This document shows, piece after piece, positions 58,541 through 60,368 of a stretch of DNA of 64,000 nucleotides. The stretch covers positions 558,001 through 622,000 of the forward strand of contig NZ_JAPKNI010000003.1 of assembly GCF_026343955.1 (NCBI RefSeq), written 5' to 3'. Origin of the DNA: Kaistia defluvii. GTDB taxonomy: Bacteria; Pseudomonadota; Alphaproteobacteria; Rhizobiales; Kaistiaceae. The notes below the pieces were generated by a model, which was given only the letters and a program-made list of their open reading frames with translations, searched no databases and had not been told where the DNA came from. Numbering within the stretch: position 1 is the stretch's first letter; each line of letters begins with the position of its first letter. Both the position numbers and the translations under genes were made by a program.

Positions 58541-59164
58541 ATGATTGATTACTCGAACAGGCAGAAGGCGCTCGCCTATATCCTCGCCGGCATCGCCGGC
58601 TACGTCGACGCGATGGGTTTTCGACATCTGGGCGGCGTGTTCGTGTCCTTCATGAGTGGCAACACCACCCGGCTCGGCGTTGACATCGCCCTGCACGACT
58701 GGAGCAAGGCGGGACAGGTCGCCGGCATCATCGCGCTGTTCGTCGTCGGCGCCGCGCTCGGGGCATGGGTCGGCAAGGACGGGCGCCGCGACCGCCGCGC
58801 CGCGATCCTGTGGACCGAGGCCGGATTGCTGGCGGTTGCAGCCCTCTCGGACAATTTCTCGCTGGCGATCGTCGGAAACGTCGCCATGGCGCTCGCCATG
58901 GGGGTGGAAAACGCTGTGTTCCAGCGCAATGGCGCCCCGGGTATCGGCCTGACCTATGTGACGGGCGCCCTCGTCAAGGTCGGCCACCGCATCGCCGTGG
59001 CCCTGGAGGGCGGCGACAAATGGGGCTGGGTCGCCAGTCTCCTGCTGTGGGCCTCGCTCTGCCTCGGCGCGATTCTGGGCGCCTCGGTCTATGGCATGGT
59101 GGGCCTGGCCGGCCTGTGGGCGGCCTGTGCCGTCATCGTGGTTCTGGCGATCCTGGCAGGCTGA
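58541..59164 (+). CDS. YoaK family (DUF1275) membrane protein
   Basis: This 207-aa protein has about six membrane segments. YoaK/DUF1275 features are ILAGIAGYVDAMGFRHLGGVFVSFMSGNTTRLG at the N-terminus (within residues 13-45) and GVENAVFQRNG-APGIGLTYVTGALVKVG in the centre. Function unknown; some members are near small-molecule efflux genes. It may be transcribed from the inverted-repeat region at 58440-58463. Confidence 0.88.
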   Translation: MIDYSNRQKALAYILAGIAGYVDAMGFRHLGGVFVSFMSGNTTRLGVDIALHDWSKAGQVAGIIALFVVGAALGAWVGKDGRRDRRAAILWTEAGLLAVAALSDNFSLAIVGNVAMALAMGVENAVFQRNGAPGIGLTYVTGALVKVGHRIAVALEGGDKWGWVASLLLWASLCLGAILGASVYGMVGLAGLWAACAVIVVLAILAG

Positions 59165-59187
59165 ACCCCGGAACGACCAGGCCGGCA

Positions 59188-59205
59188 CCTGACGTGAACG
59201 TCAGG
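59188..59205 (+). other. Hairpin downstream of the YoaK-like gene
   Basis: CCTGAC-GTGAAC-GTCAGG (also readable as CCTGACGT-GA-ACGTCAGG) lies 23 bp after the YoaK stop, followed by CATATTTGTG. It may be a weak terminator; the U-tract is broken. Confidence 0.4.
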
Positions 59206-59388
59206 CATATTTGTGCACTGCAACAAATTGCGAGCGATCGATGCTGCTCTGCATTCAGCGCAATGCTGGCATGACTTTTTTCACACTGCTCATCCATCGA
59301 GACCGGGACTAAATTCCAATCATCAGAACGGCGACAGAGAAATCCGGCGCGGTTCTGGGAAGTAGCGGTTGGTAGGGAAAGGGATCGG

Positions 59389-59544
59389 ATGATGGCTATG
59401 AACCTCATGAACTCTTACAAGACCTGGCTCAAGTATCGCGAGACCCGCAGCGAATTGTCGCGCCTCGACAATCGCGAGCTCGCTGATCTGGGCATCAGCC
59501 GCCACGACATCAACGCACTTGCCAAGCAAGCTGCCGGTTACTGA
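59389..59544 (+). CDS. DUF1127 small protein linked to CcsR/cuckoo RNA
   Basis: This 51-aa basic protein, too short for ordinary ORF cut-offs, reads SYKTWLKYRETRSELSRLDN and RELADLGISRHDINALAKQ, the DUF1127 signature. ATG 59389 is taken; 59392 and 59398 are also in frame. In Rhodobacter the DUF1127 protein CcaF1 is RNA-binding and is made from the same transcript as the CcsR small RNAs; here three hairpins with the same CCUCCUCCC loop follow, so the same arrangement is likely. The family link is established knowledge; the role in this organism is inferred. Confidence 0.88.
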   Translation: MMAMNLMNSYKTWLKYRETRSELSRLDNRELADLGISRHDINALAKQAAGY

Positions 59545-59561
59545 GTTTTCACGGTTCGTCT

Positions 59562-59628
59562 GGGAACAAACCTCCTCCCTTGTTCCCTGCGATTAGGTGC
59601 CCACAAACCTCCTCCCTTGTGCGGCACC
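59562..59628 (+). ncRNA. CcsR/cuckoo-type small RNA, two hairpins with CCUCCUCCC loops
   Basis: Hairpin 1: GGGAACAA (59562-59569) / TTGTTCCC (59580-59587), loop ACCTCCTCCC. Hairpin 2: GGTGCCCACAA (59596-59606) / TTGTG-C-GGCACC (59617-59628) with one bulge, loop ACCTCCTCCC. The loop motif CCTCCTCCC (59571-59579, 59608-59616) is complementary to Shine-Dalgarno sequences and defines the alphaproteobacterial CcsR/cuckoo RNA family. It begins 18 bp after the DUF1127 stop. Confidence 0.85.
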
Positions 59629-59635
59629 ATCAACT

Positions 59636-59675
59636 AAAGCGCCCGTCGACCTCCTCCCCGACGGGCGCTTTTTTT
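59636..59675 (+). terminator. Third CCUCCUCCC hairpin, intrinsic terminator of the DUF1127-sRNA unit
   Basis: AAAGCGCCCGTC (59636-59647) pairs with GACGGGCGCTTT (59660-59671); the loop contains ACCTCCTCCCC (motif 59650-59658), and seven T residues (59669-59675) follow. It is a strong rho-independent terminator that also carries the third copy of the anti-SD loop. Confidence 0.92.
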
Positions 59676-59864
59676 ATGCGCGATTCCGCAAGCCGATGTT
59701 TTTGCCGGCCGGAACGCCAGAGCGCCAAAGGCTGCAGGCCGCCGCGCGCCGTCCCTCCCCTGCCAAGTTTTGGCCCGCCCCTTGAATCGAATACCCGCGC
59801 ACGCCCATCTTCCGGTGCCGCAGCCGCGTGACGGATCCCGCCACGCCCAGCATCCGAGATCATC

Positions 59865-60368
59865 ATGGCGCTATCAATCTACGAGGCCTCCATTCCGGTC
59901 TTCATCCGGGCATTCGGAAATCTCGAGGCCATTCTCGACAAGGCCGTGGCGCAGAGCACCGCGGACGGCATCGACCCGCAGAGCCTGGTCGATGGCCGCC
60001 TGGCGGCCGACATGCTGCCGCTCGCCGGCCAGATCCAGCGCGCCAGCGACACCGCCAAGGGCGCCGGGGCGCGGCTGTCGGGCGTCGACAATCCGAGCTT
60101 TGCCGATACGGAGACGAGTTTCGCCGAGCTGAAGAGCCGAATCCGGCGCACGGTCGAGTTCCTGAAGTCCATCCCGCCGGAGGCGCTCGACGGCAGCGAA
60201 TCCCGGACGATCTCGATGCGAAACGGCGCCGTGCAGCTGGACGGCAAGACCTATCTGCTGCGCCACGCGCTGCCGAACTTCTTCTTCCACGTCACCACCG
60301 CCTACGACATCCTGCGCCACAAAGGCATCGCCGTCGGCAAGGCCGACTATCTCGGCAGCTTCGACTAA
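59865..60368 (+). CDS. DUF1993 family protein
   Basis: This 167-aa protein reads MALSIYEASIPVFIRAFGNL at the start, DMLPLAGQIQRASDTAKG, the DUF1993-typical SFAELKSRIRRTVEFLKSI and the C-terminal LLRHALPNFFFHVTTAYDILRHKG with histidine-rich end. The fold resembles the DinB four-helix bundle. Function unknown. It lies between the DUF1127 unit terminator and the small minus-strand exported gene. Confidence 0.85.
   Translation: MALSIYEASIPVFIRAFGNLEAILDKAVAQSTADGIDPQSLVDGRLAADMLPLAGQIQRASDTAKGAGARLSGVDNPSFADTETSFAELKSRIRRTVEFLKSIPPEALDGSESRTISMRNGAVQLDGKTYLLRHALPNFFFHVTTAYDILRHKGIAVGKADYLGSFD

Follow-up and report, generated by a model that had tools for sequence, protein, structure and literature searches.

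A 51-aa DUF1127 gene with three look-alike hairpins directly behind it raises the question of which kind of RNA this locus of Kaistia defluvii encodes and what controls it. The locus was analyzed within a window of 64,000 nucleotides (the whole stretch presented here), whose numbering is used throughout for the locus. As a locus it represents known biology, met here in a new genome; the less expected part is the promoter upstream. The gene and its hairpins are as follows.

59389..59544, + strand: DUF1127 small protein gene, 51 aa (PF06568, 50.6 bits, E 1.6e-13)
59551..59673, + strand: ar14-family small RNA (RF02344, 75.9 bits, gathering score 58.8, model positions 1-123 of 123)
59562..59587, + strand: hairpin 1 with anti-SD loop 59571-59579; double changes in 3/8 pairs, 91.4% of cells paired
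59596..59628, + strand: hairpin 2 with anti-SD loop 59608-59616; double changes in 7/10 pairs, 92.3% of cells paired
59639..59675, + strand: hairpin 3 (59639-59668) with anti-SD loop 59650-59658 and T tract 59669-59675, an intrinsic terminator; double changes in 4/10 pairs, 100% of cells paired

The earlier note on this DNA had described three hairpins with identical ACCUCCUCCC loops directly after a 51-aa DUF1127 gene, the third being an intrinsic terminator, and each element was recovered at the positions claimed. The motif CCTCCTCCC fills all three loops, occurs five times over the two strands of the 64-kb window taken together against 0.87 expected, and reached five or more occurrences in 0 of 100 shuffles. 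In the predicted fold of 59545-59675, all three hairpins form, with an energy of -55.2 kcal/mol (z -8.88) that 0 of 200 shuffles equaled. Seven T directly follow hairpin 3, which is absent from the list of a simple terminator scan because its 10-nt loop exceeds the scan's loop limit of 8. The DUF1127 reading frame has an alternative start at ATG 59392, which would give 50 aa, and the neighbors of the locus are genes for DUF1275 on the 5' side and DUF1993 on the 3' side.

A covariance-model search, proposed in the earlier note as a check, placed the RNA in a family: the Rfam ar14 model matches end to end and above its gathering score. The stem covariance among relatives on which that note had staked its reading was also found. 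In an alignment of 34 of the 60 genus and family loci, picked by eye for regular spacing with 26 left out, standard pairs occupy 94.9% of pair cells, versus 37-53% when the partners are slid, and 14 of the 28 stem pairs show changes on both sides, so that structure is conserved rather than sequence. The number of further pair types is not above that of shuffles (24 versus 25.7, with 455 of 500 shuffles reaching 24). The loops hardly vary, although some loci carry a single change, for example ATCTCCTCCC; single folding of 57 loci gave three CTCC loops in 50 and two in 7.

The CcsR loop of Rhodobacter carries the same sequence as the hairpin loops of the window, and the Rhodobacterales CIN1 loci listed below show the same motif. 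The name CIN1, after Reinkensmeier & Giegerich 2015, denotes the association of a short DUF1127 gene with a CcsR-like RNA (PMC10253847), and the ccaF1-CcsR1-4 locus of R. sphaeroides is described there as a short DUF1127 gene followed directly on the same strand by hairpins and a terminator. Four homologous RNAs with RNase E/DUF1127-dependent maturation are found at that locus, whereas the three hairpins here form one ar14 unit. Such a three-hairpin form, with CCUCCUCCC in each loop and the third hairpin as terminator, is the described form of the alpha-r14/NfeR1 family (PMC10746234). The K. defluvii locus is a further instance of the known CIN1 kind, a DUF1127 gene with a cuckoo RNA, whose RNA is of alpha-r14/NfeR1 type. 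The earlier reading of a CcsR/cuckoo-type locus therefore stands as regards DUF1127 plus cuckoo RNA; its suggestion that three hairpins represent a different arrangement does not, as this form is already in Rfam. A difference from NfeR1 is that the S. meliloti RNA is described as transcribed from its own promoter (PMC10746234), whereas here the RNA is predicted to form the 3' part of the DUF1127 transcript.

Scanning the genome for further copies, another suggestion of that note, yielded three ar14 loci (on C15, C17 and C1), each directly 3' of one of the five DUF1127 genes. Two DUF1127 genes of this genome (G000:C1:109593-109685 and G000:C20:127301-127393) have neither ar14 nor the promoter pattern described below. 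Among 61 genomes of the genus, family and order, ar14 was present in 37 and DUF1127 in at least 53. Linkage was taken as a listed DUF1127 match upstream of ar14 on the same strand within 450 nt. Above the ar14 cut-off, at least 39 of 40 matches were linked in the genus (related loci, so that these counts are not independent), at least 10 of 11 elsewhere in the family and at least 1 of 6 elsewhere in the order; below it, the figures were at least 4 of 6, 2 of 5 and 7 of 14. Among the DUF1127 matches listed, all five unlinked order matches above the cut-off lie in one genome, G049. Two weak, unlinked ar14 matches in the genus (L230, L231) may be due to chance.

Comparison of the DUF1127 upstream regions in genus and family revealed a conserved promoter, which precedes the DUF1127 gene and not the RNA directly; its predicted start lies about 230 nt 5' of the RNA. 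Its parts in the window are listed here.

59214..59222, + strand: upstream palindromic site TGCACTGCA, of the form TGC[AG]N[CT]GCA, seen by comparing promoters
59242..59273, + strand: conserved promoter element TGCTGCTCTGCATTCAGCGCAATGCTGGCATG with overlapping LysR-type half sites, from genus/family conservation and a pattern scan
59262..59274, + strand: box resembling the VtlR/LsrB site, A-N3-CA-N3-ATGC (GCAT-N3-TG-N3-T on the complement); the predicted start puts it at about -59 to -47
59286..59291, + strand: weak -35-like CTGCTC, read by eye, 17 nt before the -10
59309..59314, + strand: -10-like CTAAAT with conserved spacing; transcription would start at about 59321

A sigma70 consensus scan of 58900-60000 returned no promoter. 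The genus consensus, drawn from 37 of 43 promoters, reads TGcTGCtcTGCaTca.gCGCA..gC.GcCATGcG.tTTTTCgcagTGCTCat and then CTA.ATT, with TGCTC conserved at the -35 position. Among the 53 genus and family promoters examined, the TGC of the box and CTA are 59 nt apart in 45 cases and 58 nt apart in one, and 46 have the palindromic site upstream of the TGC, at 36 nt in 37 of them and at 35 nt in 9. This palindrome might be a PhaR site. Written as the pattern TGYTGCNNTGCN7GCANNNCNGSYATG, the promoter matches three times in the own genome, all at DUF1127-ar14 loci, and 41 times in the 61 genomes; the reversed control pattern matches in neither set. Forty of the 41 matches lie within 450 nt 5' of ar14, the remaining one stands before a DUF1127 gene that is truncated where its contig ends, and the rest of the order (G028-G060) has no match. 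Among the DUF1127 matches listed, the pattern precedes 33 of the 43 genus genes linked to ar14 and none of the 24 without such a link; because it was built from some DUF1127-ar14 loci, matches there are expected, and the informative part is its absence elsewhere.

In sequence, the window promoter looks like the promoters activated by LsrB/VtlR and unlike the RpoHI/RpoHII promoter of ccaF1-CcsR. Published boxes are GCAT-N3-TG-N3-T at -61 to -49 in PabcR1 (LsrB/VtlR; PMC8844928), TGCA-N6-GCAT at -72 to -57 in PnfeR1 (LsrB; PMC10746234) and CAATGCAGCCATGCA for Brucella VtlR (PMC12595884). As in the alpha-r14/NfeR1 family, a putative LsrB-like box stands before a sigma70-like core, and as at the VtlR/LsrB-activated DUF1127 genes and AbcR RNAs of Brucella, Agrobacterium and Sinorhizobium, this similar putative box lies at the same distance from the predicted start. 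The window also has TGCATTCAGCGCA at 59250-59262, about -71 to -59 from that start. Of the seven fixed positions of the box, five are matched in the window, five in the C1 paralogue and all seven in the C17 paralogue. A strict form of the box was found in 15 of the 43 promoters from the genus and in 6 of the 10 from the family (2.5% of shuffles), and a looser form, chosen after the sequences had been seen, in 38 of 43 and 8 of 10, the window included (7.5% of shuffles).

A regulator of this kind is encoded in the genome. LsrB is reported to activate NfeR1 (PMC10746234), and VtlR to activate DUF1127 genes in Brucella and, in Agrobacterium, the orthologue atu1667 (PMC12595884, PMC7486931). When the LysR protein beside AbcR in G049 was used as the query, 55 of 61 genomes had a match, and the own-genome LsrB/VtlR orthologue (G000:C1:327481-328386) was the sole match at E<=1e-60, with 61% identity to the G049 protein. 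Its gene follows a Pyr_redox_2 gene taken as trxB, which is related to the gene at the corresponding position in three other Hyphomicrobiales checked. The regulator gene thus lies beside a thioredoxin-reductase-like gene as in the known VtlR/LsrB systems, a thioredoxin reductase gene being placed beside the VtlR gene in Brucella (PMC12595884) and beside the LsrB/VtlR gene in Agrobacterium. Unlike in those systems, the DUF1127 gene and the anti-SD RNA are here predicted to share one promoter, and ar15/AbcR, which was found in G049, gave no match in six family genomes that have the orthologue (G000, G001, G005, G014, G017, G020). In those six genomes, the chief anti-SD RNA may be ar14, provided that no diverged AbcR escaped the search. 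Going by the title of a 2021 paper by Eisfeld, a LysR-type regulator reportedly controls numerous small RNAs in Agrobacterium.

We consider it probable that one short, LsrB/VtlR-driven operon gives both the DUF1127 protein and an RNA that keeps ribosomes from binding. The RNA family, its structure, its linkage to the gene, the conserved promoter and the LsrB/VtlR orthologue are observed, and transcription, processing, binding and targets are predicted from them. A LysR activator of the LsrB/VtlR kind would bind 59242-59274 and drive transcription from about 59321, giving a single transcript with the DUF1127 coding part that would end at the third hairpin. The 3' part would be the alpha-r14 RNA, probably freed by a cut within the short segment that follows the stop codon, and its three equivalent CCUCCUCCC loops would base-pair with G-rich ribosome-binding sites, thereby preventing several mRNAs from being translated.

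How far such a box extends beyond the family was also considered. A weight matrix trained on 37 of the 43 genus promoters transferred poorly and was set aside, despite 9 of 10 held-out family promoters beating all 100 shuffles; among the loci listed, it succeeded at 9/22 Hyphomicrobiales CIN1 clusters, 29/67 solo, 2/13 farther DUF1127 and 7/19 Rhodobacterales CIN1. Because of this poor transfer, the published Brucella motif was taken as an outside test. A contig scan for three CCTCCTCCC in a row gave at least 120 loci. Eight triples in non-alpha records (L073, L118, L119, L145, L155, L183-L185) were set aside as probable tandem repeats because their spacing is regular and short. The 112 others were sorted by record title, with L097 and L123 placed in Rhodobacterales by array form and L071, L078 and L171 counted as Hyphomicrobiales though their titles do not say so. 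Among the loci listed, a DUF1127 gene lies within 100 nt of the first motif at 20 Hyphomicrobiales and 19 Rhodobacterales loci and at 101-500 nt at 7 and 1, respectively. None was found nearby at 2 listed Rhodobacterales loci and at 63 of 90 Hyphomicrobiales loci, including four (L069, L136, L140, L175) where at most 150 nt upstream were examined and such a gene is possible.

Allowing three mismatches in up to 260 nt upstream, the Brucella box was found among the listed Hyphomicrobiales at 15/20 CIN1, 4/7 farther DUF1127 and 31/61 solo ar14 loci, and among the listed Rhodobacterales at 18/18 CIN1 (of 19), 0/1 farther and 1/2 solo loci. Shuffles reached 0-2.5% over all groups and 0.8-2.5% for the two CIN1 groups and the Hyphomicrobiales solo ar14 loci; they permute dinucleotide blocks, which is less exact than a dinucleotide shuffle. 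Allowing four mismatches, the listed Hyphomicrobiales CIN1 loci rose to 19/20, with the search region moved 5' of the first gene at seven loci with two DUF1127 genes in series (13/22 before the move), and 17 of the 61 solo ar14 loci listed had no box within that limit. With exact dinucleotide shuffles (percentages in brackets), four mismatches gave 33/43 in the genus (14%) and 6/10 in the family (3%), and among the loci listed 18/18 for Rhodobacterales CIN1 (19%), 46/67 solo clusters (15%), 5/13 farther DUF1127 (9%) and 1/8 non-alpha; random genomic pieces gave 43/360 and 10/88. The window box has four mismatches to the Brucella 15-mer, and 10 of the 43 genus promoters have five. At the Brucella rhizosphaerae locus (L144), four loop motifs lie 27 nt beyond the stop codon of a DUF1127 gene, and the box is present with two mismatches. 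In most listed Rhodobacterales loci the site is TGCATRGCAGCATTG, and in 15 of 18 it differs by one or two letters from the Brucella box read as its reverse complement. The sequences hint that many such loci may share one conserved kind of regulator.

The Rhodobacterales loci also bear on an alternative in which the same operon is transcribed under the heat/oxidative-stress sigma factor RpoH, the upstream element serving another factor. A TTG...CAT core follows the box, as judged by eye, in the 18 that could be anchored of 22 listed Rhodobacterales loci; its sequence is compatible with the reported RpoH promoter, and the box and RpoH could thus coexist. The ccaF1-CcsR promoter itself is described as RpoHI/RpoHII-dependent (PMC10253847). 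However, the window promoter core does not appear RpoH-like by eye: the -35 position of the genus consensus, read in the same way against the RpoH form, is TGCTC and not TTG, and the conserved element takes the position of the LsrB box in PabcR1 and PnfeR1. We therefore regard RpoH control in K. defluvii as unlikely. Because the promoter resembles LsrB/VtlR-activated ones, nutrient or redox signals rather than heat would be the first expectation; oxidative stress remains a plausible signal because, in Brucella, DUF1127 genes under VtlR control reportedly increase in response to H2O2 (PMC12595884).

The regulator of the Rhodobacterales loci may be another LysR protein. LysR homologues are present in 24 of the 24 genomes searched behind named loci, with 38-44% identity in 17 Rhodobacterales. 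A 2015 paper by Sheehan is said, by its title, to describe the LsrB/VtlR regulator as highly conserved among alpha-proteobacteria. Another LysR protein is possible because LsrB has been called unique to Rhizobiales (PMC11975290) and the best LysR homologue was not beside trxB in any of the six Rhodobacterales checked.

The relation between RNA and protein gene can be followed where the gene has been lost. In one genome of the genus (G013:C3, L197), the ar14 array and the same promoter occur without a DUF1127 gene, and the counterpart in G005 (C1, L212) has it. The two loci align over 312 nt of flank (92.6%), 114 nt of promoter (86%) and 177 nt of array (87%), with 211 nt of leader and gene in G005 against 9 nt in G013; about 100 nt between flank and promoter are likewise present in G005 and absent from G013. 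As the other linked genus loci have the DUF1127 gene, we infer a deletion in G013 rather than an insertion in G005. Arrays resembling ar14 without a recognizable DUF1127 gene were also found in G019, G021, G023 and G025. At one locus, L243 (G021:C209), the same kind of promoter is present, and the DUF1127 position seems, by eye, to hold a small, basic, unrelated reading frame. Multiplication was observed as well: four DUF1127 genes stand in a row at G034:C130, three of them with ar14-like matches below the cut-off behind; two ar14 units follow one DUF1127 gene at G018:C16 and G022:C35; and two DUF1127 genes in series precede the array at L088, L104, L117, L132, L164, L180 and L103.

Alternatively, the hairpins could be mainly a 3' UTR or terminator of the DUF1127 mRNA, serving stability, attenuation or as a site for the DUF1127 protein, with no trans-acting RNA. 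The array ends in a terminator, its first motif lies 23-89 nt after the DUF1127 stop codon in the 38 genus loci that have two or more exact motifs, and CcaF1, the DUF1127 protein of Rhodobacter, is reported to bind RNA and to act in sRNA maturation (PMC10253847). We consider this quite unlikely, given that the loops are nearly invariant while the stems change, that promoter and RNA persist in G013 without the gene, as do arrays at the 63 of 90 listed Hyphomicrobiales loci without one in the upstream sequence examined, and that NfeR1 is described as acting in trans through the same loops (PMC10746234). That the DUF1127 gene is the sole functional part and the hairpins are functionless repeats deserves almost no credence: DUF1127 proteins can work by protein contacts, such as that of the Agrobacterium protein with PhoR (PMC12501420), but strong covariation and nearly invariant loops argue against it. 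By analogy, the 51-aa protein of the preferred LsrB/VtlR-driven operon may assist RNA processing, as CcaF1 does in Rhodobacter, or may act elsewhere.

As for the mRNAs that such an operon would silence, the three loops of NfeR1 are reported to act redundantly in silencing mRNAs at their ribosome-binding sites (PMC10746234), and the loops here would be expected to behave likewise. In the own genome, GGGAGGAGG placed 3-9 nt before ATG starts gave five matches versus four for the reversed control, which is no enrichment. One of the five opens a long reading frame of 411 codons, the others having at most 60. It encodes a solute-binding protein of the ABC-transporter kind (SBP_bac_1) whose ribosome-binding site lies at G000:C18:190092-190107, and the predicted pairing with the loop amounts to -19.5 kcal/mol. 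Sixteen matches to this protein were found in 14 genus genomes, the start not being located in G006; at its ribosome-binding site, the loop could form nine pairs in four cases (the own genome, G009, G012 and a second G012 copy), eight in two, seven in seven and five in two. The solute-binding protein is the best single candidate target in the own genome, although the pairing is suggestive only because G-rich SD sites are common.

Taken over the wider set of loci, we lean slightly toward one ancestral cassette of the Alphaproteobacteria, a VtlR/LsrB-type box with a DUF1127 gene and an anti-SD hairpin array, behind NfeR1, the VtlR-activated DUF1127 genes and ccaF1-CcsR; the array would have grown by duplication or expansion, and on more than one occasion the protein gene would have disappeared, so that the old promoter came to serve a small RNA standing alone. 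The retention of the array where the gene is missing suggests that the RNA can serve without the neighboring protein. No publication linking VtlR/LsrB to a cuckoo RNA behind a DUF1127 gene was found in a literature search that left out key subscription papers and is no proof of priority. If the reading of the promoter is true, it joins three findings that, in the sources cited, have so far been linked in pairs: LsrB with NfeR1 (PMC10746234), VtlR with DUF1127 (PMC12595884) and DUF1127 with CcsR-like RNAs (PMC10253847). A LysR activator besides RpoH would then be conceivable at the CcsR locus of Rhodobacter. Furthermore, the phenotypes of VtlR/LsrB or DUF1127 mutants might partly stem from the anti-SD RNA of the same transcript.
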